A stretch of DNA of 64,000 bases from contig NZ_CADIJR010000001.1 in the NCBI RefSeq assembly GCF_902859645.1, positions 248,001-312,000 of the forward strand, in the 5' to 3' direction. This document shows, one piece after another, positions 8,234 through 61,629 of this stretch. The DNA is from Achromobacter insuavis (GTDB taxonomy: Bacteria > Pseudomonadota > Gammaproteobacteria > Burkholderiales > Burkholderiaceae_B). Position 1 is the stretch's first letter; each line of letters starts with the position of its first letter. A model generated the notes under the pieces. That model did not search any database, was not told the origin of the DNA, and saw only the letters and a program-made list of their open reading frames with translations. A program made the position numbers and the translations under genes.

Positions 8234-9166
8234 TCAGCGCCGAGAATCGGGCAGCAGGTATAGCAGGCCCTGCGTGAAGCCGCGAGGCGCGACGGTCAGG
8301 TGGTTTTCGTTGTTCAGGATGTCGACGCGCAGCTTGAGCGACGGATAGCGGCGGGACTTCAGCGCCGCTTCCAATGCCTTCGTGTCCGACACCATGTTGT
8401 AGGTCCTGGCATAGCGGGGATCGCCCTTGCGGACTTCCTCGTATTCGCCGATATACATGTAGACCCGCGCCGGCAGATCCTTGTGGCCGGTGGCATAGGC
8501 GACCTCCCGGCCGAGCATGTAGCGCTTGTCGTACCACAGGGACGGGCTGCCCAGGATGTAGCCCGTGAACAGGCGCGGATCGCTCAGCAGGATCTCGGCG
8601 CCGAGCAGGCCGCCGTAGGAATGCCCGAGGAACAGGCGCCGTTGCTCGTCGGTGCGGTAGCGGCTGGCGATGAACGGCACGACGCCATCGCGCAGATAGG
8701 CGATATAGGCCGCGGATTCGCCGTGAATGTCGGCGGCCGGGGCGTCCTTCGTGCCGGCCGGCGTGGGCGTGTAGTCGCGCCGCCGGCTGTGCATGCCACC
8801 GTCGCCCTTCGCATAGGAAAGACCGACCAGGATGAATTCCTCCACCGCGGGCCCTTCCCCATTCAGGCGCCGCGCGATCTGCCGCACGATCGGGAAGGCA
8901 TAGTCGGCATCGGTGACGTACAGCACCGGATAGCGGCGCTGCGGTTGATCGGCGTAGGAGGGCGGCAGCGCGACGAACACCTGGTAGGCGCGACCGGAGA
9001 CGGGATCGGGCACGTCCCATACCGTGCTGTCGGCCACCTCGTAGGGCTGGCCCGCGCCGCGTTGCCAGAAGGCGGGCTTGGCGGCCGGCGTGTCTTTCGC
9101 GGACGCGCCGCCCGGCCAGCAGGCCGCGGACAGCAACATCAGGGTGAACAATGCGGCAGCTCTCAC
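8234..9166 (-). CDS. Secreted alpha/beta-hydrolase, esterase D/IroE-like
   Basis: 310 residues starting at GTG 9166. This start is preceded by GGAGA at five bases and opens directly into a signal peptide (residues 1-23); longer in-frame extensions run into the tRNA gene and were rejected. The nucleophile elbow GHSYGG places the catalytic Ser at 183 and the likely catalytic His at 289 (NNENHLTVAP). The family contains feruloyl-type esterases and siderophore esterases (IroE, Fes); a periplasmic ester hydrolase is supported, the substrate is not. It begins only 30 bases after the tRNA-Leu(UAA) 3' end with no terminator between. The PIN gene follows after nine bases. Confidence 0.85.
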   Translation of the reverse strand: MRAAALFTLMLLSAACWPGGASAKDTPAAKPAFWQRGAGQPYEVADSTVWDVPDPVSGRAYQVFVALPPSYADQPQRRYPVLYVTDADYAFPIVRQIARRLNGEGPAVEEFILVGLSYAKGDGGMHSRRRDYTPTPAGTKDAPAADIHGESAAYIAYLRDGVVPFIASRYRTDEQRRLFLGHSYGGLLGAEILLSDPRLFTGYILGSPSLWYDKRYMLGREVAYATGHKDLPARVYMYIGEYEEVRKGDPRYARTYNMVSDTKALEAALKSRRYPSLKLRVDILNNENHLTVAPRGFTQGLLYLLPDSRR

Positions 9167-9195: not shown

Positions 9196-9508
9196 TGGTG
9201 CCCGAGACCGGAATCGAACCGGTACGGCCTTGCGGCCGAGGGATTTTCGTACCACTTCGGCTTTCGCCGCCGGCGCGCGGAGCGCCGTTCGTGGTCTGGA
9301 GCACGCCTTCACCATAGCCTTGCGGCCTTAGGTGCCCGCCGTCTGCTCTCTACACCTTCCCGGTTCTTTCGATCCGGGCTTGGCTCGGCGTTGGCTCGGA
9401 ACAAGTCCAGGGCATTCGCCGAGTTTGACGGGCTACACCTCTGGAGTTTCCTCCGGAGGGCTCAAATGGATTCAAGTCCCTTGTGTCTACCAATTTCACC
9501 ACTCGGGC
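9196..9508 (-). tRNA. tRNA-Leu(UAA) interrupted by a group I intron
   Basis: The 5' exon is 9508-9474 (35 nt) and the 3' exon 9247-9196 (52 nt, encoded CCA included). Joined, they give a complete class II tRNA: acceptor GCCCGAG/CTCGGGC, D arm, anticodon stem AGGGA/TCCCT with loop CTTAAAA (anticodon TAA), a long variable arm CGGCCGCAAGGCCGT, and T arm ACCGG-TTCGATT-CCGGT. The 226-nt interruption lies exactly between U34 and A35. That is the site used by the cyanobacterial tRNA-Leu(UAA) group I intron. Without the intron the gene would be the sole UAA-reading leucine tRNA seen here; its splicing may be essential for decoding TTA. Confidence 0.95.
9248..9473 (-). ncRNA. Self-splicing group I intron (IC3-like) in tRNA-Leu(UAA)
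   Basis: 226 nt, no internal ORF. Read on the minus strand it contains a series of blocks nearly identical, from memory, to the Azoarcus tRNA-Ile intron: TCAAACTCGGCGAA, AACGCCGAGCCAAGC, GAAGGTGTAGAGA, AGACGGC, CACCTAAGG, GCTATGGTGAAGGC and TCCAGACCACGAA. P1 can form between the 5' exon end GGGACUU and the guide GAGCCCU (intron nt 11-17), with the expected U-G wobble at the splice site. The last intron base is G (omega-G, position 9248). Blocks corresponding to P3-P8 and the guanosine site are present, so catalytic competence is likely. Subgroup is inferred by resemblance. Confidence 0.93.
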
Positions 9509-29812: not shown

Positions 29813-30191
29813 GGGAAATCTCCAGAAATGTCCGCGTTGCCGCGGACGGCCGGGCGGGGGGATGGTGTGGCGGGAGCGAGGCGTCAAGCCTGTCCGGTTG
29901 TGGCTACTATCCCCGAGCGCGAGCGGCCTGGGAAACGAATGATTTTCAACCGATCTTCAAGCGGAACTTGAAGATCGGCATGCCGGCGGCGGAGTTGCCG
30001 CCCCGCGACGCATGCCGGTTCGAATCGGTGCGCCGTTCCGCCCATCGAGCGTCATTCGCTACAAAACTGGAACAGTTTGTTCCGGGAAAAAGCGCCGTTT
30101 TATGGCTCGGAAAGGTGGCCGCTCGCGGCCTCGGCCAGTAGAATTTGCTCACTCGTTACCCCTCTATCTACCAGTCGAAAGGCATATCCTC
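29813..30191. promoter_or_regulatory. Divergent control region with two inverted repeats
   Basis: 379 bases between the aminotransferase (minus) and the nitroreductase (plus). It holds a perfect 12-bp inverted repeat at 29950-29978 (CCGATCTTCAAG, five-base loop, CTTGAAGATCGG, no T-tract). It also holds a palindrome GGAACAGTTTGTTCC at 30069-30083. Both are operator candidates; no cognate regulator gene is adjacent. Confidence 0.5.
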
Positions 30192-30791
30192 ATGAGCAAC
30201 GCATACCTCGACGCACTGAAGAAGCGCCGTACGCAATATTCGCTGGGCCGCAACCTGTCCGCCTCGAAAGAGGAACTGGCGTCCCTGATCCAGGAAGCGA
30301 TCAAGCACAGCCCCTCGTCGTTCAATTCGCAGAGCTCGCGCGCCGTGGTCCTGTTTGGCGCCGAAAGCGACAAGCTGTGGAACCTGGCCATCGAGGAAGT
30401 GCGCAAGGTCGCCCCGGCCGAAGGCTTCGACAAGACCGAAGCCAAGCTCAAGAGCTTTGCCGCCGGCGTCGGCACCGTGCTGTTCTTCGAAGACCAGGAC
30501 GTGGTGCGCAGCCTGCAGGAGAAATTCGCGCTGTACGCCGACAACTTCCCCGTGTGGTCGGAACAGGCGGGCGGCATGGCCCAGCTGTCGGTCTGGACCG
30601 CGCTGGCCAACGCCGGCGTGGGCGCCAGCCTGCAGCACTACAACCCGCTGATCGACGGCGCCGTGGCGCGTGAATGGAACATCCCGGCCAGCTGGAAGCT
30701 GCGCGCGCAGATGCCGTTCGGCTCGAACGAAAACGGCTTTGGCGAAAAGGGCTTCATGGACGACGCCGAACGCTTCCGCGTGATCGGCTGA
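30192..30791 (+). CDS. Nitroreductase-family protein (Frm2/Hbn1-like)
   Basis: 199 residues from ATG 30192. A flavin-binding N-terminal motif, KKRRTQYSLG, and the segment KHSPSSFNSQSSRAVVLFG place it in the FMN nitroreductase superfamily. The length and the PSSFNSQSSR wording resemble the yeast Frm2/Hbn1 and bacterial YdgI-like branch linked to oxidative stress. The reaction would be NAD(P)H-dependent reduction of nitroaromatic or quinone-like substrates in the cytosol. It is a single gene with its own promoter region and a clear terminator. Confidence 0.9.
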   Translation: MSNAYLDALKKRRTQYSLGRNLSASKEELASLIQEAIKHSPSSFNSQSSRAVVLFGAESDKLWNLAIEEVRKVAPAEGFDKTEAKLKSFAAGVGTVLFFEDQDVVRSLQEKFALYADNFPVWSEQAGGMAQLSVWTALANAGVGASLQHYNPLIDGAVAREWNIPASWKLRAQMPFGSNENGFGEKGFMDDAERFRVIG

Positions 30792-45592: not shown

Positions 45593-46578
45593 GCGCGAGC
45601 GGGGCGGGGCGCATCGATCCGCGCGCGCTGGATGGGGCGGTGGAATGGTTCCTGCGGCTGACGTCCGGCACCGCCAGCCAGGCCGACCACGAGGCCTGGC
45701 AGGCCTGGCGCCGCGCCGATCCCGAACATGAACGCGCCTGGCTGCGCACCGAAGCCCTGACGCGCCGCTTCGAGGCCCTGCCCAAGGGCGTGCTGCCGGT
45801 GCTGGGCCAGCCGCGCTCGGCCGGGCGCCGGCGCGCGCTCGGCAAGCTGGTGTTGCTGGCCAGCGCCGGCGGCGCTGGCTGGCTGGCGTATCGCGACGAT
45901 GCGTGGCGCGGCTGGACGGCCCAGTACCGCACCGCCGTCGGCGCGCGCCGCGAGGTGATGCTGGCGGATCACAGCCGCATCGTGCTCAATGCCGCGACCG
46001 CCATGGACGTGCTGTTCGACGCCCGGCAACGCCTGATTGCGCTGCACGCCGGCGAGATCCTGGTCGAGACCTCGCCCGATCCGGCGCCCGTCGCGCGGCC
46101 GTTCATCGTGCGGACGCGCGAAGGCAGCATCACCGCGCTGGGCACGCGCTTCGTGGTGCGGCGCGACGATGGCGTGTCGACCGTGCAGGTGCTGGACGGG
46201 GCGGTGCGGGTGGCGCCCCGCGGCGCCGCGTCCGACCGCGCGCGGCAGGTGCCGGCGGGCATGAGCCTGCGCTTTGGCGACGGCATCGACGAGGGCCTGG
46301 CGCCGGTGGCCGGCGACCCGTCGGCCTGGCAGCGCGGCATGCTGCAGGTGGACGGCATGCCGCTGCGGACCTTTCTGGCGGAACTGCAGCGCTACCGCAG
46401 CGGCTGGATCGACTGCGCCCCGGAAGTGGCGCACCTGCCGATCTCGGGCGCCTTTCCGCTGGAGGACACCGACCGCGTCCTGGCCACGGTGGCCGACACG
46501 CTGCCGTTGCGCCTGCGCTACCGCACGCGCTACTGGGTATCGGTGCTGCCGCGCGGCGCCAGTGGAACGAATTTGTAA
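45589..46578 (+). CDS. FecR-family anti-sigma regulator (system 1)
   Basis: 329 residues from GTG 45589, chosen for the overlap with the sigma stop and the standard FecR N-terminus. N-terminal sigma-binding DUF4880 domain (AVEWFLRLTSGTASQADHEAWQAWRRADPEHERAW). One membrane helix at about 81-98 (LGKLVLLASAGGAGWLAY). The periplasmic FecR domain (VGARREVMLADHSRIVLNAATAMDV, RTREGSITALGTRFVVR) contacts the receptor's STN domain. It transmits substrate occupancy to the sigma factor. Confidence 0.94.
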   Translation: MSASGAGRIDPRALDGAVEWFLRLTSGTASQADHEAWQAWRRADPEHERAWLRTEALTRRFEALPKGVLPVLGQPRSAGRRRALGKLVLLASAGGAGWLAYRDDAWRGWTAQYRTAVGARREVMLADHSRIVLNAATAMDVLFDARQRLIALHAGEILVETSPDPAPVARPFIVRTREGSITALGTRFVVRRDDGVSTVQVLDGAVRVAPRGAASDRARQVPAGMSLRFGDGIDEGLAPVAGDPSAWQRGMLQVDGMPLRTFLAELQRYRSGWIDCAPEVAHLPISGAFPLEDTDRVLATVADTLPLRLRYRTRYWVSVLPRGASGTNL

Positions 46579-46585
46579 CGCGATT

Positions 46586-46616
46586 AGCACTTTTCGCGCT
46601 TCGATTGGCTACGAGG
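46586..46616 (+). promoter_or_regulatory. FecI-type promoter of receptor 1
   Basis: AGCACTTTTCGCGCTTCGATTGGCTACGAGGG in part aligns with the promoters of receptors 2 and 3 and with the E. coli fecA promoter (CCTTTTT ... CTCGttcGaCtcAtAGC). It is the most divergent of the three. It lies in the gap between fecR1 and receptor 1. Confidence 0.45.
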
Positions 46617-46646
46617 GTAAGACCCACCGTGAGGAGTTACCCCGTC

Positions 46647-49076
46647 ATGCCCCCGCGTTTCCCCCGCCTGCGCGCAAGCGCGTCCCGCCGCGCCGTGCGC
46701 GGCGCCCGCCTGTTCGCCTTGCCGCTGGCCGTCCTGGCCGCGCCCCTGCAGGCGCAGACCACCGCCGTGGCGATTGCGCCCGGCCCGCTCAGCGCGGCGC
46801 TCTCGGCCTATGCCGCGCGCGCCGGCGTCCTGCTGTCATTCGATCCGGTGCTGACGCGGGACTTGACGACCCCGGGGCTGAACGGCAGCTACGGATTTGA
46901 AGAGGGCTTGCGCCAACTGCTCCAGGGCAGCGGCCTGGAGCCCGTGCGGCGGGCCGATGGCGGCTACACGCTGCGGCGCGCGCCTGCCTCGAACGTGACC
47001 GCGCTGCCGGCCGTCACCGTGACCGGCAGCCGCGATGGCGACGCGCCCAGCGAAGGCACCGGTTCGTACACGACGCGGGTGGCCACCTCCGCCACGCGCA
47101 TGGACCTGTCCCTGCGCGAAACCCCGCAATCGGTCAGCGTCGTCACGCGCCAGCAGATGGACGACCAGAACCTGGTCACCCTGGACGACGTGATGCGGCA
47201 AACGCCGGGGGTGGTCGCCGACAAGCTCGACGAGCGCGTCACCTTCACCTCGCGCGGCTTTGCCTTGAGCACCATGATCGACGGCGTGCCGACGTTCGCG
47301 TTCAAGACGCCGGCGGCCGAGATCGGCATGATCAACACCGTGATCTACGACCGCGTCGAGGTGGTGCGCGGCGCGGCCGGGCTGCTCAACGGCGTGGGCG
47401 AGCCGGGCGGCTCGGTCAACCTGGTGCGCAAGCGGCCCACCGCCGAATTCGCCGGTCACGCCACGGCGGGCGTGGGCCGCTGGAACAACTACAACCTGGA
47501 GCTGGACGTCGGCGGCCCGCTGAACGACAGCGGCAGCCTGCGCGGCCGGGTCATCGGCTCGCGCACCGCGGGCGACAGCTTCATCAACGACAAGAAGCGC
47601 TCCGACGACGTCTTCTACGGCATCCTCGAGGCGGATGTCGCGTCCAACACCACCTTGAGCCTGGGCTTCGAACACCAGAAGACCGCCATCGATGGCGCCA
47701 ACTTCGGCCAGGCGCCGCTGTTCTACAGCGACGGCAGCCGCACCCATTTCTCGCGCTCGTTCAACCCCGGCACGCCGTGGAGCCAGTGGGACATGTACAG
47801 CGACAAGATCTTCGTCACGCTGGACCATCGCTTCGCCAACGGCTGGCGCGTCAAGATGGACGCCAGCCGCCTGAAGAACGAACGCAAGGCCCTCTGGGGC
47901 TACCTGTTCGAGTATTTCCCGGTCGAGCAGAATGGCGATTCGACCATCGAGATCCGCCAGAACCCGGCCACTTCGACCAACAAGTCGTTCGATCTCTACG
48001 CCACCGGCCCCTTCCAGGCGTTCGGCATGGAGCACCAGGCCGCGCTGGGCGTCAGCGTCAACGACTACACCAGCGAACTCAACCTGAATTCGGCCAATCC
48101 GAACGGCTGGGACCGGCGTCCACTGAACTTCTACCAGCTGCAGAGTTTTCCGAAGCCGAGCCGTTTCTACACCTACTTCAACACCTTCCTGGACGCCAAG
48201 GAAACCGCCGTATATGGTTCCACCCGCCTGAAGCTGGCTGAGCCGGTGTCGCTGGTGCTGGGCGGCCGCGCCACCTGGTATGAGGAAAAGTCCTCGTCCT
48301 ACAACGGCCCCGCCAATCTCTGGACCACCAACCCCACCGCCAAGGTCAATGGCGAGTTCACGCCGTATGCCGGCACGGTGGTGGACCTGAACGACAACTT
48401 CTCGGCTTACGCCAGCTACACCCGCATCTTCATTCCGCGTTCGGAGCGCGATTCGTCGAACGCGCTGCTGCCGCCGCAGACCGGCAAGAACTACGAACTG
48501 GGCCTGAAGGGCGAGCACCTGGACGGCAAGCTCAACACCAGCTTCGCCGTCTTCCGCACCCAGGAAGCGAACGTGCCGGTCGAGGACCCCAGCGCGCCGC
48601 CGCTGCCCGATGGCAGCACGCCGTACCGGTCGGTGGCCGGCGCGCGCAGCAAGGGCTTCGAGGTGACGGTGGCGGGCGAGGTGGCGCGCGGCCTGCAGGT
48701 GATGGGCGGCTACACCTACTTCGCCAAGCGCGACAACGAGGGCGCGCTGCTGTTGCCCAATTATCCCGAACGCCTGTTCCGGGTGGCGGCCAGCTACCGG
48801 CTGCCGGGCGCCTGGAGCAAGCTGACGGTGGGCGGCAGCGTCAATTACCAGAGCGGCATCTACTACGACGAGTCGAGCGGCCTGGGCCGCGCCTCGCAAG
48901 GGGGCGTGACCCTGCTGGGGCTGATGGCGCGGTATGAGTTCAGCAAGCAGGTGACGGCGTCGATCAATATCGACAACCTGACCGACAAGCGCTACTACAG
49001 CGGGCTGGGCGGGTACAACGGCTACAACTACGGCACGCCGCGGAACGTGTGGATGAAGGTGAGCTACAGGTTCTAG
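46647..49076 (+). CDS. TonB-dependent siderophore receptor with STN domain (system 1)
   Basis: 809 residues from ATG 46647 (GAGGAG nine bases upstream). Signal peptide ends around LQA-QTTAVA. STN signalling domain about 38-112 (PGPLSAALSAYAARAGVLLSFDP). Plug with ETPQSVSVVTRQQMDDQNLVTLDDVM and TPGVVADKLDERVTFTSRGF. Barrel with GLLNGVGEPGGSVNLVRKRPT, ending KVSYRF. The wording is that of FhuE/FpvA-like hydroxamate or mixed siderophore receptors. Ligand binding should activate sigma 1 through FecR 1; the siderophore is not known. Confidence 0.94.
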   Translation: MPPRFPRLRASASRRAVRGARLFALPLAVLAAPLQAQTTAVAIAPGPLSAALSAYAARAGVLLSFDPVLTRDLTTPGLNGSYGFEEGLRQLLQGSGLEPVRRADGGYTLRRAPASNVTALPAVTVTGSRDGDAPSEGTGSYTTRVATSATRMDLSLRETPQSVSVVTRQQMDDQNLVTLDDVMRQTPGVVADKLDERVTFTSRGFALSTMIDGVPTFAFKTPAAEIGMINTVIYDRVEVVRGAAGLLNGVGEPGGSVNLVRKRPTAEFAGHATAGVGRWNNYNLELDVGGPLNDSGSLRGRVIGSRTAGDSFINDKKRSDDVFYGILEADVASNTTLSLGFEHQKTAIDGANFGQAPLFYSDGSRTHFSRSFNPGTPWSQWDMYSDKIFVTLDHRFANGWRVKMDASRLKNERKALWGYLFEYFPVEQNGDSTIEIRQNPATSTNKSFDLYATGPFQAFGMEHQAALGVSVNDYTSELNLNSANPNGWDRRPLNFYQLQSFPKPSRFYTYFNTFLDAKETAVYGSTRLKLAEPVSLVLGGRATWYEEKSSSYNGPANLWTTNPTAKVNGEFTPYAGTVVDLNDNFSAYASYTRIFIPRSERDSSNALLPPQTGKNYELGLKGEHLDGKLNTSFAVFRTQEANVPVEDPSAPPLPDGSTPYRSVAGARSKGFEVTVAGEVARGLQVMGGYTYFAKRDNEGALLLPNYPERLFRVAASYRLPGAWSKLTVGGSVNYQSGIYYDESSGLGRASQGGVTLLGLMARYEFSKQVTASINIDNLTDKRYYSGLGGYNGYNYGTPRNVWMKVSYRF

Positions 49077-58519: not shown

Positions 58520-58683
58520 AGGCGATAGTGTAGGAACAGTCCTGCTTACGGCGGTTGACCCGCCATCTTCTCCATTCTGCGTTCGCGTTTCGCGGCCCGG
58601 CGCGTCATGTCTCTTGAAGACGATGACCAGGGCCCTGCTTGTTGCATGGATCCGCCCTGGCGTTCACGCCGAGGAGGCAGACC

Positions 58684-61629
58684 ATGCACCGACCGTACCG
58701 GGCGCGCCCGCGCCGCCGTTCCCCTTTTCCGCGATCCCGCGCCGCCGCCGGATTGGCCCTGGCCTGCCGGCTGACGCTCGCCGTCCTGGGCGGCGCGTCC
58801 TGGCCAGCGGCGCAGGCGCAGCCGGCGCGGGTGCAGTACGACATCAGCGCCGGGCCGCTGGCGCAGGTGCTGAGCCGCTACGCGGCGCAGTCGGGCGTGG
58901 CGTTGTCGCTGGTCGCCGGGCAGGTTGCCGGGCAACAGAGCGCGGGGCTGCATGGTCGCTACGAGGTGGATGAAGGCTTTGCGCAGCTGCTGCGCGACAC
59001 GGGGCTGGCGGCCCGCCGGGGTGTGTCGGGTTACGTGCTGGTGGCGGTGCCGGGGGAAGCGGCCGGATCGGTCGTGCTGCCGCCGGTCGAGGTCGACGCC
59101 GACGCCTTGCCCGAGAAAGCGGTGTACACCGCGCCGCGTTCCTCGGCGTACCTGTCGAGTCAGGACCTCGACCGGTTCGGCCGCGTGTCGGTCGGCGACC
59201 TGCTGGCCGGCATACCGGGCGTGCAGGTCGGCGACAGCCGCAATGGCGGGGCGCTGGACGTCAACATCCGCGGCATCCAGGGGCAGAGCCGGGTGGCGGT
59301 GCGGGTCGATGGCTCCGAGCAGGCGCTGGACGTGTACCGGGGATACGCGGGCACGGCCCAGCGCAGCTATATCGACCCGGACCTGATCAGCGACGTGACC
59401 GTCAACAAAGGTCCCTCCGTGACGTCCGGCGCCATCGGCGGTTCGGTGGAAATGCGCACGCTGAGCGTGCGGGACATCCTGACGGAAGGCAGCCAGATCG
59501 GCCTGCGCCTGAAGGGCGAGTTATGGAACAACGGCGTGGCGCCGCCGCATCGTGGCGTCAATCCTCCATCTTCCTCCACAGGGGAGCCCTCGGCGAATGA
59601 TCTGCGAGCCGTTCCGCATGATAGCCATGGCAGCCTGTTCGGGTCGCGCGCGGAATCGGGCAGCCTGGCGTTTGCCTATGCCAACGACCGCCTCGACTTC
59701 GTGGCGGCCTACGCGCACCGCAACCAGGGCAACTACTTCTCGGGCAAGAAGGGGCGGGAGCGTTATCGCATGTATTACCCGGGTGGTCGCTACGAGATGA
59801 ACAGCGTGGCCAAGGCCTACAACCCTGGCGAAGAAGTGTTGAATTCGTCGGCCGAAACCGAGTCGACGCTGTTGAAACTGACGCTGCGACCCGCCGCAGG
59901 CCACACGCTGGAACTGGGCTACCGCCGCTACGACGGAAAAATCGGCGAAATCATGCCGTCGGACATCATCCGTTCCGGCACGGCGGGCATCACGCAGTAT
60001 CCGCTGGGCGAAGCCGGTATCGACACCTATACGGCGCGCTACCAGTTCCAGCCGGCGGACAATCCGCTGGTGGACCTGGGGGTGAACCTGTGGATGACGG
60101 ATGCCAAGACCAGCCAGTTGACCTCGGTGTGGGCGCCCGCGTCCCAGGCCTATGTGACGGACCGCAGATGGACCCGGCAGGCCGACCGCCGCATCGGCGG
60201 CGATCTGGCCAACACCTCGCGGTGGCGCACGGCGCACGGCGATGTCAACCTCAACCTGGGCGGCTCATTCCAGGTCGAGGATATCCGGCCGCAGCGCGGC
60301 GTCGTGACGACGCAGCAGGACATCGACGGCAACCGCGTGCTGCGCGATGCCTCGCGCCGGGAATTCAGCCTGAACGGCAAGCTGGAATACCGGCCGGTGG
60401 CGTCGCTGACGCTGTGGGGCGGTGGCCGTTACAGCCATTACGACGTCAGGGATCGCGGCGTGTATTCCACCGCCATCCGCGAACTGCGCCCCTATCGCGC
60501 CATCATGGTGAAAAAGCCGGGCGAGTGGTGGTGGCCGGGCAACTTCGGCTACCAGACGTGGTGGCCGGACGAGAATGGCCGGTACACGGACGCCACCGAT
60601 CCGCGCCTGCATAACGGCATCGTGTACCAGGACAGCAACCGCCCCGAGGTCGGCGTGCCGTACGACGATTTCGGCGCGGGCTCGACCCGCGTCTATGACG
60701 AGGATGTGAAAGAGGTCGTCACCGGCTATGCGCATGCCCCCAGGCTGCGCAGCCGCGCCGGGGGCTTTGCCCCGTCGGTGGGCCTGAACCTGGAACTGGT
60801 GCCGGACACCTTCGTCTATGCCTCGTACACCCAGGGGCTGCGGTTGCCATCGCTGTTCGAGACCAGCCTCGGCACGATGAGCCTCTCTCCGGGCAGGGGA
60901 CTCAAGCCCGAACGTTCCAACAGTTGGGAATTCGGCGCCAGCACGGTGCGTGGCAACCTGTTGGCCGATGGCGACACGGTCGCCGCCAAGTTGGTCTATT
61001 TCAACAACAACATCAAGCACTACATCGTGCGCTACTACGATTATGACGGCGTGGAGGCGCTGACCGAAAAGGCGCTGCAGATGAGAAACACCGATCGCTA
61101 CAAGACCAGCGGATTGGAATTCCAGTCGCGCTATGACGCCGGGTGGGTGTTCGCGGATCTGGCGGCCACGTATTACCTGAAGACCGAGACCTGCGACGCG
61201 GCCTTCGCGCAGCACTTGCGTGACAACCCCAGCGCTTCCCGGCACACGGAAAACACGCCGACGTGCACGCCGGGAAGTTTCATGGGTTCGTATACCAACA
61301 CCCAGAATCCGCCCAGGCTGGCCTTGAGCCTGACCGCCGGCCTGCGCTTCTTCAACGAAACGCTGACGCTGGGCGGCCGTATGGCCTACACCGCGGGCCC
61401 CACGGTCAGGACCGACCTGCCATGGCAGGAAACGCCGACGACGAAGCAGCTCGTGTACCACCCAGTGACGCTGTTCGACCTGTTCATGACCTATCGGCTG
61501 CGCGAACAGATGATGGTGAGCATCTCGGTGCAGAACCTGACGAACCGCTACTACCTGGATCCGCTGGCGCAGAGTTTCATGCCGGCGCCAGGCCGGACAG
61601 TGCGGATCGGCATGCAGACGCGCTTCTGA
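58684..61629 (+). CDS. Large TonB-dependent haemin/haemoglobin-type receptor with STN domain
   Basis: 981 residues from ATG 58684 (GAGGAGG six bases upstream; an earlier ATG at 58639 is less well placed). Long basic signal peptide ending near AQA-QPARV. STN about 47-120 (AGPLAQVLSRYAAQSGVALSLVAG). Plug with SSQDLDRFGRVSVGDLLAGIPGVQVGDSRNGGALDVNIRGIQGQ and GPSVTSGAIGGSVEMRTL, typical of the TonB-haemin/haemoglobin/transferrin family. A Trp-rich loop (GEWWWPGNFGYQTWWPDENG) around 615-635 and a Cys-containing loop near 840-862 are notable. Ends IGMQTRF. The STN domain implies a sigma/FecR partner, but none is adjacent. Confidence 0.92.
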   Translation: MHRPYRARPRRRSPFPRSRAAAGLALACRLTLAVLGGASWPAAQAQPARVQYDISAGPLAQVLSRYAAQSGVALSLVAGQVAGQQSAGLHGRYEVDEGFAQLLRDTGLAARRGVSGYVLVAVPGEAAGSVVLPPVEVDADALPEKAVYTAPRSSAYLSSQDLDRFGRVSVGDLLAGIPGVQVGDSRNGGALDVNIRGIQGQSRVAVRVDGSEQALDVYRGYAGTAQRSYIDPDLISDVTVNKGPSVTSGAIGGSVEMRTLSVRDILTEGSQIGLRLKGELWNNGVAPPHRGVNPPSSSTGEPSANDLRAVPHDSHGSLFGSRAESGSLAFAYANDRLDFVAAYAHRNQGNYFSGKKGRERYRMYYPGGRYEMNSVAKAYNPGEEVLNSSAETESTLLKLTLRPAAGHTLELGYRRYDGKIGEIMPSDIIRSGTAGITQYPLGEAGIDTYTARYQFQPADNPLVDLGVNLWMTDAKTSQLTSVWAPASQAYVTDRRWTRQADRRIGGDLANTSRWRTAHGDVNLNLGGSFQVEDIRPQRGVVTTQQDIDGNRVLRDASRREFSLNGKLEYRPVASLTLWGGGRYSHYDVRDRGVYSTAIRELRPYRAIMVKKPGEWWWPGNFGYQTWWPDENGRYTDATDPRLHNGIVYQDSNRPEVGVPYDDFGAGSTRVYDEDVKEVVTGYAHAPRLRSRAGGFAPSVGLNLELVPDTFVYASYTQGLRLPSLFETSLGTMSLSPGRGLKPERSNSWEFGASTVRGNLLADGDTVAAKLVYFNNNIKHYIVRYYDYDGVEALTEKALQMRNTDRYKTSGLEFQSRYDAGWVFADLAATYYLKTETCDAAFAQHLRDNPSASRHTENTPTCTPGSFMGSYTNTQNPPRLALSLTAGLRFFNETLTLGGRMAYTAGPTVRTDLPWQETPTTKQLVYHPVTLFDLFMTYRLREQMMVSISVQNLTNRYYLDPLAQSFMPAPGRTVRIGMQTRF

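Follow-up and report, generated by a model that had tools for sequence, protein, structure and literature searches.

A small group I intron of the IC3 type interrupts the anticodon loop of tRNA-Leu(UAA) in Achromobacter insuavis, in the one gene for this tRNA that the draft genome was found to contain. It is highly probable that this ribozyme splices itself out and restores the tRNA, and that its lineage is shared among tRNA-Leu genes. The exons are continuous with each other, the intron core covaries, the guide agrees with the exon across different host tRNAs, and the interrupted gene is retained in every genome of the genus that was searched. The window referred to below is the whole stretch of DNA analysed (64,000 nt). 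The features of the gene are collected in the table.

Table. Features of the interrupted tRNA-Leu(UAA) gene, in window coordinates.
Feature	Position	Strand	Basis
tRNA-Leu(UAA) 5' exon, 35 nt, last base U34	9474..9508	-	ARAGORN intron mode; sequence
Group I intron, IC3 type, 226 nt, final base G	9248..9473	-	ARAGORN intron mode; alignment, covariation, covariance model, tree
Internal guide GAGCCCU, of which GAG binds exon CUU; 5' splice site U-G	9457..9463	-	Sequence; guide-exon match across host types
P2 hairpin, GAAA tetraloop; 5' strand overlaps the guide end	9438..9459	-	Sequence
P3 5' strand, partner 9340-9335	9427..9432	-	100% of cells paired, double changes in 3/6 pairs
P4 (9422-9417/9390-9385) and P5 (9413-9405/9401-9394)	9385..9422	-	96.8% and 91.2% of cells paired
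P6/P6a, 9383-9374 with 9363-9355	9355..9383	-	100% and 80.3% of cells paired
P7 5' strand, partner 9303-9299, pseudoknot with P3	9344..9348	-	100% of cells paired, double changes in 3/5 pairs
P3 3' strand	9335..9340	-	Covariation
P8 with 11-nt tetraloop-receptor-like motif CCUAAGG...UAUGG	9310..9334	-	All cells paired; motif from sequence
P7 3' strand	9299..9303	-	Covariation
P9 (ACCAC/GUGGU), GAAA loop, then terminal G	9248..9295	-	Sequence
tRNA-Leu(UAA) 3' exon, 52 nt including encoded CCA, first base A35	9196..9247	-	ARAGORN intron mode; sequence

The gene, with its CCA encoded, extends from 9508 to 9196 on the minus strand of the window and carries a 226-nt insert between U34 and A35. The exons (9508-9474 and 9247-9196), once joined, form an 87-nt tRNA-Leu with the anticodon UAA, a long variable arm and the encoded CCA. 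When introns are allowed, ARAGORN reports a tRNA-Leu (taa) with a 226-nt intron after nucleotide 35, whose ends are exactly those read from the sequence; without introns it reports no tRNA at 9508-9196. The preliminary description had proposed exons split by 226 nt at U34/A35 and a check by an intron-aware tRNA scan, and that scan recovers the interrupted gene with the same ends. Also as described there, the 5' splice site has its U, set against a G of the guide, and the intron closes with a G, in ...GGUACG directly before the exon AAAAUCCC. The P1 pairing given there (GGGACUU with GAGCCCU) stands in its conserved part, CUU with GAG, but it holds an A-C mismatch inside. From the sequence, P10 can form between the UUU preceding the guide and the three A with which the 3' exon begins. 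At 226 nt the intron is near the middle of the range of 79 tRNA-Leu(UAA) introns (204-314 nt), and the suggestion that it belongs to the smallest does not hold; most of those at the tRNA-Ile site after U36 fall below this length.

The core was evaluated in an alignment of 26 cores, taken from 54 distinct ones, on which the structure was set by hand (P3, P4, P5, P6, P8, and P7 as a pseudoknot with P3). In this P3-P8 structure, including the P3/P7 pseudoknot, 95.3% of 978 cells are paired, a figure that leans towards the structure because the latter was partly read from the same sequences; control structures slid by 1-3 columns pair in 30-41%. Double changes occur in 20 of the 38 core pairs. The observed pairing and double-change values were reached by none of 500 shuffles, and the further pair types by one of 500. 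That the structure was partly read off these sequences does not account for the double changes in P3, P5, P7 and P8. The whole precursor also folds more stably than its shuffles (z -2.76; 2 of 100 shuffles as low), and covariation is the stronger evidence of the two.

The insert has the P3-P8 core with the P3/P7 pseudoknot, the U-G pair within P1 and the terminal guanosine of group I introns. The IC3 introns of tRNA genes are small, lack the P5abc extension, have GNRA loops in L2 and L9 and a receptor in P8, and are inserted in the anticodon loop. The window intron has this size (226 nt), GAAA in L2 and in L9, the P8 receptor motif and the 34/35 site in the anticodon loop. A GNRA string near L2 was found, by a loose pattern, in all 73 of the Leu(UAA) introns counted. 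The stretch CCUAAGG...UAUGG, which we take to be an 11-nt tetraloop-receptor-like motif, is no general feature: a pattern finds it in 27 of 73 Leu(UAA) introns. IC3 group I introns are also described, in one published passage, as being without P5a-d. The insert is therefore an IC3-type group I intron of a known class, and its assignment to this type in a betaproteobacterial tRNA-Leu(UAA), made earlier from the letters alone, is borne out by the covarying core and the P3/P7 pseudoknot.

As proposed, the transcript would fold into the group I core and the guide GAG would hold the exon CUU, so that the 5' splice site is a U-G pair. This site would be attacked by a guanosine bound at P7. The freed exon would then attack behind the terminal G while P10 keeps the 3' exon in place, and ligation would restore the anticodon loop CU-UAA-AA. 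Tolerance of the insertion may be helped by the little use of this tRNA, UUA being the rarest codon in the window genes. These sequence features suggest that the intron splices itself, and that it does so in the cell. On the other hand, the A-C mismatch leaves a short P1, which counts against this explanation.

A decayed, non-splicing insert in a tRNA that became dispensable through the rarity of UUA would agree with the codon counts (3 of 1579 leucine codons in 40 predicted genes) and with the fact that UUG is readable by tRNA-Leu(CAA). However, exons and intron are kept in all 25 genomes of the genus, the core pairs are maintained by compensatory changes, and UUA is still used in 3 of the 40 genes; decay is thus extremely unlikely, and a functional ribozyme remains the preferred reading.

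The other tRNA-Leu genes found in the host genome read CAA, CAG (two), UAG and GAG. An uninterrupted UAA anticodon arm had no match by pattern in this genome, a draft of 199 contigs, and the split gene is the only UUA-reading tRNA gene found in it. A second intact tRNA-Leu(UAA), which according to the preliminary description would, with this copy unexpressed, refute its reading, was not found in the draft by pattern or by tRNA scan; the statement that the copy is the sole one is not absolute, because the assembly is in 199 contigs. A full-length match (88-100% identity) is present in 25 of the 25 Achromobacter genomes searched, its own included, and all these copies are read by ARAGORN as an interrupted tRNA-Leu (taa). 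One copy (genome G015) differs from the window at 1 of 313 nt. Another genome, G021, has two full-length copies near both ends of one contig (C1:3706-4016 and C1:6411582-6411892), perhaps an assembly overlap.

The same-strand neighbours are, by Pfam, a carbon-nitrogen hydrolase upstream and a putative esterase downstream. The esterase likely starts with a GTG at 9166, read from the sequence, which is 30 nt past the tRNA gene. No terminator-like site was found between the two on the minus strand, so the earlier remark that an esterase follows without a terminator holds at the window locus. Among 24 Achromobacter loci, several with short or cut flanks, the esterase lies beside the gene at >99% identity only in the window's own locus and one other (L003), and a third (L020) has a 29% match. 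A fixed intron-esterase unit was considered and ruled out, given that the esterase is not a constant neighbour among these loci.

The Rfam model RF00028, proposed earlier as a check, gave a divided answer. The window copy had no match at the cut-offs nor up to an E-value of 10, and had none either when run as L001. On the other hand, four of 15 relatives reach the cut-off (L176, L251, L032 and L207), eight score below it and three are without a match (L145, L166 and L257). One of the four is itself a tRNA-Leu(UAA) intron (L207, 50.1 bits) and another is from a viral contig (L251). Since relatives reach the cut-off, the miss of the window copy is best read as a matter of sensitivity; RF00028 is a detection model and not a defining trait of group I introns. 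In practice, this intron-bearing gene escapes the Rfam group I model and also ARAGORN when its intron option is off.

Relatives of the intron were obtained from one pattern scan of 84,980 species genomes (44 loci) and from a search of related genomes. A covariance model built from the intron core found matches in genomes drawn from the order (63 of 399), the class (63 of 369) and the phylum (41 of 398); the three draws overlap in some genomes and some matches are partial. Weak part-model matches of the class survey may be other group I introns and were kept out of the tree. The preliminary description had, as one of its options, an IC3 ribozyme reach the cyanobacterial site in this lineage; a single arrival of that kind does not fit an intron type so widespread in the order, the class and the phylum.

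A second alignment holds 100 hand-picked loci, with near-copies and partial matches left out; 21 of its host labels were assigned manually, since ARAGORN puts some splice sites in the wrong place or returned no label. The commonest host is tRNA-Leu(UAA), with 46 of the 100 loci. It is followed by tRNA-Ile(CAU) split after U36 (16), Leu(CAA) (12), Ile(CAU) split after U33 (8), Ser(UGA) (6) and Arg(CCU) (6). There is one each of Arg(UCU), Thr(UGU), Asn(GUU), a phage Lys(UUU), a Leu(UAA) split after U33 and a core without a tRNA. The Leu(UAA) intron seemingly placed after U33 and not U34 (L206, about 1501-1642) may be compared with the second tRNA-Ile(CAU) site, and the core without visible tRNA exons (L170, 340-488) is perhaps a remnant or a moved copy. 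One tRNA-Ser(UGA) with an IC3-type intron (L062) is on a contig filed under Mycobacteriaceae, near proteobacterial introns in the tree, maybe through a binning error.

The guides were counted in 136 distinct precursors, many of them close kin, with splice sites that fit the patterns. GAG is the guide in 75 of 79 Leu(UAA), 15 of 15 Leu(CAA) and 6 of 6 Ser(UGA) introns, GUG in 18 of 18 Ile(CAU), GGG in 15 of 15 Arg(CCU) and GCA in 2 of 2 Thr(UGU). By the rule used, the expected guide was not seen in four of the 79 Leu(UAA) introns and in the single Arg(UCU) intron. The terminal G is present in all 136, although the rule for the 3' site itself requires a G. The three bases of the guide thus fit the last three exon bases in most host types. 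The guide of the Leu(CAA) introns stays GAG, which makes the 5' splice site a C-G pair where group I introns usually have U-G; this C34-G pair was seen in L039, L044, L048, L053, L056, L065, L072 and others, with GAG in 15 of 15. An intron-bearing tRNA-Leu of Duganella flavida (L064, at about 5200; 5' exon GGGGATCC) has an apparent C33 in its anticodon loop.

The tree was built from 99 cores and 142 columns, the core without a tRNA around it having been dropped beforehand. The window intron falls in a clade of 33 rows (support 100/98), of which 21 are Leu(UAA) and 12 Leu(CAA) introns. In what order the hosts changed is uncertain, because the columns are few (142), 52 of the 95 inner branches are drawn open (13 are well supported) and the bootstrap had not converged. 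Purely vertical inheritance within the order was rejected for its conflict with taxonomy, but the tree is poorly resolved.

The Azoarcus tRNA-Ile(CAU) intron had been named as the closest in core resemblance, and the IC3-type core and structure common to Ile and Leu introns would be in keeping with a jump of an Azoarcus-type intron into tRNA-Leu(UAA) in this lineage. However, the Ile(CAU) introns after U36 form their own clade (99/98, 16 of 16 rows), from which the window intron is excluded, and P3 and P7 differ between the two by shared double changes. Core identity is 65.5% to L144, a locus with a 28-nt stretch that we take to be the start of the Azoarcus ribozyme, versus 85-89% to the nearest introns outside the genus, all of them in tRNA-Leu(UAA) or (CAA). 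A closest kinship with it is consequently not supported and such a jump is very unlikely; the closest kin of the window intron are those of tRNA-Leu genes.

How the lineage spread among these genes is indicated by the Leu(CAA) introns of two Bordetella species (L048 and L056) and of Pusillimonas caeni (L065). Their joined exons are 100% identical, CCA left out, to the uninterrupted Leu(CAA) of the window's genome and 88.1% identical to its Leu(UAA). As the exons match the resident uninterrupted gene, the introns moved between resident isoacceptor genes. An origin of these three by mutation of the anticodon from UAA to CAA is ruled out by the same exon identity. L056 is in the tree and L065 is represented there by L072, which has an identical core, both in the window's clade; L048 is outside the tree. 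By pattern, the Leu(UAA) arm is intact in both Bordetella genomes whereas an intact one for Leu(CAA) is absent, the reverse of Achromobacter; in the Pusillimonas genome neither of the two was found intact. A further genome (G373) has introns in both Leu(UAA) and Leu(CAA) and lacks an intact arm for either; the two introns do not group as sisters.

Uninterrupted Leu(UAA) genes were found, by a strict pattern, in 28 of 81 genomes of the family. One of them (L380) shares with Achromobacter a downstream neighbour with a PIN domain (Pfam name; 72% over a partial piece). This suggests an orthologous empty site, and nothing firmer because its tRNA is only 82.6% identical to that of the window. The exchange of the intron lineage among proteobacterial tRNA-Leu(UAA) and (CAA) genes, entering resident genes without bringing a tRNA of its own, is in part demonstrated by these cases. 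With 226 nt there would be no room for an endonuclease gene, so the intron presumably moved through reverse splicing, or else the conserved exons served for recombination.

The cyanobacterial tRNA-Leu(UAA) intron presumably sits at the same 34/35 site. Derivation of the window intron from this ancient one, which cyanobacteria and plastids share, would account for the common tRNA and site, whether through old common ancestry or through a cyanobacterial donor. It is also compatible with constraint tests in which neither a single clade of Leu(UAA) and Leu(CAA) introns (p-AU 0.176) nor one of all 34/35-site introns (p-AU 0.097) was rejected. However, the Leu(UAA) introns as a single clade were rejected (p-AU 0.022), and the mixture of intron-bearing and uninterrupted genes within one family makes losses or transfers necessary. 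Moreover, the trnL g/h primers spell 39 nt of plastid intron, and over these the window's clade is the least plastid-like of all host classes, with a mean of 24.1 of 39 (32 of its 33 rows) against 26.3 for Ser and 28-31 for the rest. This comparison speaks mildly against a recent cyanobacterial donor and says nothing firm on old common descent. The cyanobacterial intron is generally held to be ancient, as stated in a passage of one paper (PMC4476775); nevertheless, a derivation from it is judged unlikely, and exchange among proteobacterial tRNA-Leu genes is preferred.

Scans of viral contigs for cyanobacterial or plastid introns found none in tRNAs at the 42 places examined among the matches listed. 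IC3-like cores away from tRNAs were seen in viral contigs (L248, L250, L251, L253 and others), and such contigs contain the sequence of the plastid trnL g primer, letter for letter, at least 120 times.

Host tRNAs tend to read rare codons. Codon usage was taken from the 40 window genes that a crude caller predicted, and this one usage served for every host. Among the 61 codons UUA is used least (the leucine codons number 1585 with first codons included), and the three genes that use it hold one UUA each (window 30012-30791, 45903-49076 and 58639-61629). The codons of the host tRNAs rank 1, 2, 4, 5, 6, 9, 16 and 32 among 44 (one-sided Mann-Whitney p 0.0008), in a test thought of after the hosts had been seen, with each tRNA type counted once, one genome's codon usage, a list of 44 usual tRNAs and the phage Lys(UUU) left out. 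When restricted to tRNAs with U34 or U36, which the splice site favours, the test gives p 0.010. AAC, read by the Asn host (rank 32), runs against the trend. Slow maturation of a little-used tRNA is cheap, and this could be the whole explanation.

A bolder reading is that IC3 introns are a moving family, settled in the anticodon loops of the rarest-codon tRNAs (UUA, AUA, AGA, ACA, UCA, AGG) of GC-rich proteobacteria, and that in Achromobacter splicing would set the supply of the UUA tRNA, with GTP or the growth state gating UUA genes. It has its model in bldA of Streptomyces, which gates UUA-containing genes, and is highly improbable. If true, the ribozyme would be a switch for the few genes that contain UUA (3 of the 40 predicted in the window).

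Copies of this type of gene also occur on mobile elements. Resistance plasmids bear, some 0.65 kb away from aac(3)-IId, a tRNA-Leu(UAA) gene that looks complete and has an IC3-type intron (L254 5995-6293, on pCTX-M3, and L255 4995-5291). Its exon 1 is the same, 35 of 35 nt, as that of L232, from a genome of another class of the phylum. At 80% or more of its length, the plasmid gene is found in 1257 of 72,556 plasmids and in 624 of 5426 E. coli genomes, nearly all at 99% identity or more. It may mark the source of the aac(3)-IId resistance segment. In Gordonia phage Daredevil a tRNA-Lys(UUU) has a 238-nt IC3-type intron at 34/35 (L257, 1840-2151); a 2014 review, in a passage on the subject, placed all phage group I introns then known in protein genes (PMC3984707).

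The survey amounts to a natural series, in which one ribozyme type occupies different tRNAs with a guide that follows the host exon, including transfer between tRNA-Leu isoacceptors whose exons are the resident ones. This makes two questions directly testable, namely how endonuclease-free introns move and why they are mostly in rare-codon tRNAs. Among the matches listed in the open-licence PMC literature no report was found of a group I intron in a betaproteobacterial tRNA-Leu, a negative that carries little weight. Nor did those matches, from searches on the intron in general, mention introns shared between isoacceptors, C-G splice sites, a rare-codon pattern or copies on plasmids.

Compared with known systems, the window intron has in common with that of the Azoarcus tRNA-Ile(CAU), also IC3, the P3-P8 helices, the GAAA loops and the 11-nt P8 receptor motif. 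The two differ in the tRNA, in the site (after U36 in Azoarcus), in the guide (GUG and not GAG), in their separate clades and in the core identity given above. With the IC3 intron of cyanobacterial and plastid trnL it shares the tRNA, presumably the site and the type of core, whereas in the sole comparable stretch its clade is alike at 24 of 39 nt. A group I intron in the tRNA-Arg(CCU) of the alphaproteobacterium Agrobacterium was reportedly described by Reinhold-Hurek and Shub in 1992. It likewise has an IC3-like core in the anticodon loop, and the covariance model of the core also finds tRNA-Arg(CCU) introns; in contrast, these are in another tRNA, have the guide GGG and fall outside the window's clade.

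A review of tRNA diversity places group I tRNA introns, in the relevant passage, in cyanobacteria and in alpha- and betaproteobacteria (PMC4033280). In the part of the tRNAscan-SE 2.0 paper concerned, group I introns are reported in tRNA-Ile2 of Acidovorax and Burkholderia (PMC8450103). This case is alike in that betaproteobacterial tRNA genes are hidden from tRNAscan-SE by group I introns, and unlike in the tRNA concerned, no interrupted tRNA-Leu being named in that part. Putative group I introns in the tRNA-Leu-TAA and tRNA-Arg-TCT of Beggiatoa 'Orange Guaymas', credited to MacGregor et al. 2013a, and similar interrupted tRNAs in Thiomargarita nelsonii are mentioned in a section of another paper (PMC4853749). 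There too, according to that section, a proteobacterial tRNA-Leu(UAA) is missed by annotation through a putative group I intron; these organisms are, however, Gammaproteobacteria, and the likeness to the window intron is one of description. The best-known bacterial tRNA intron site is thus extended from cyanobacteria and plastids, and from this putative gammaproteobacterial report, to a betaproteobacterial genus.
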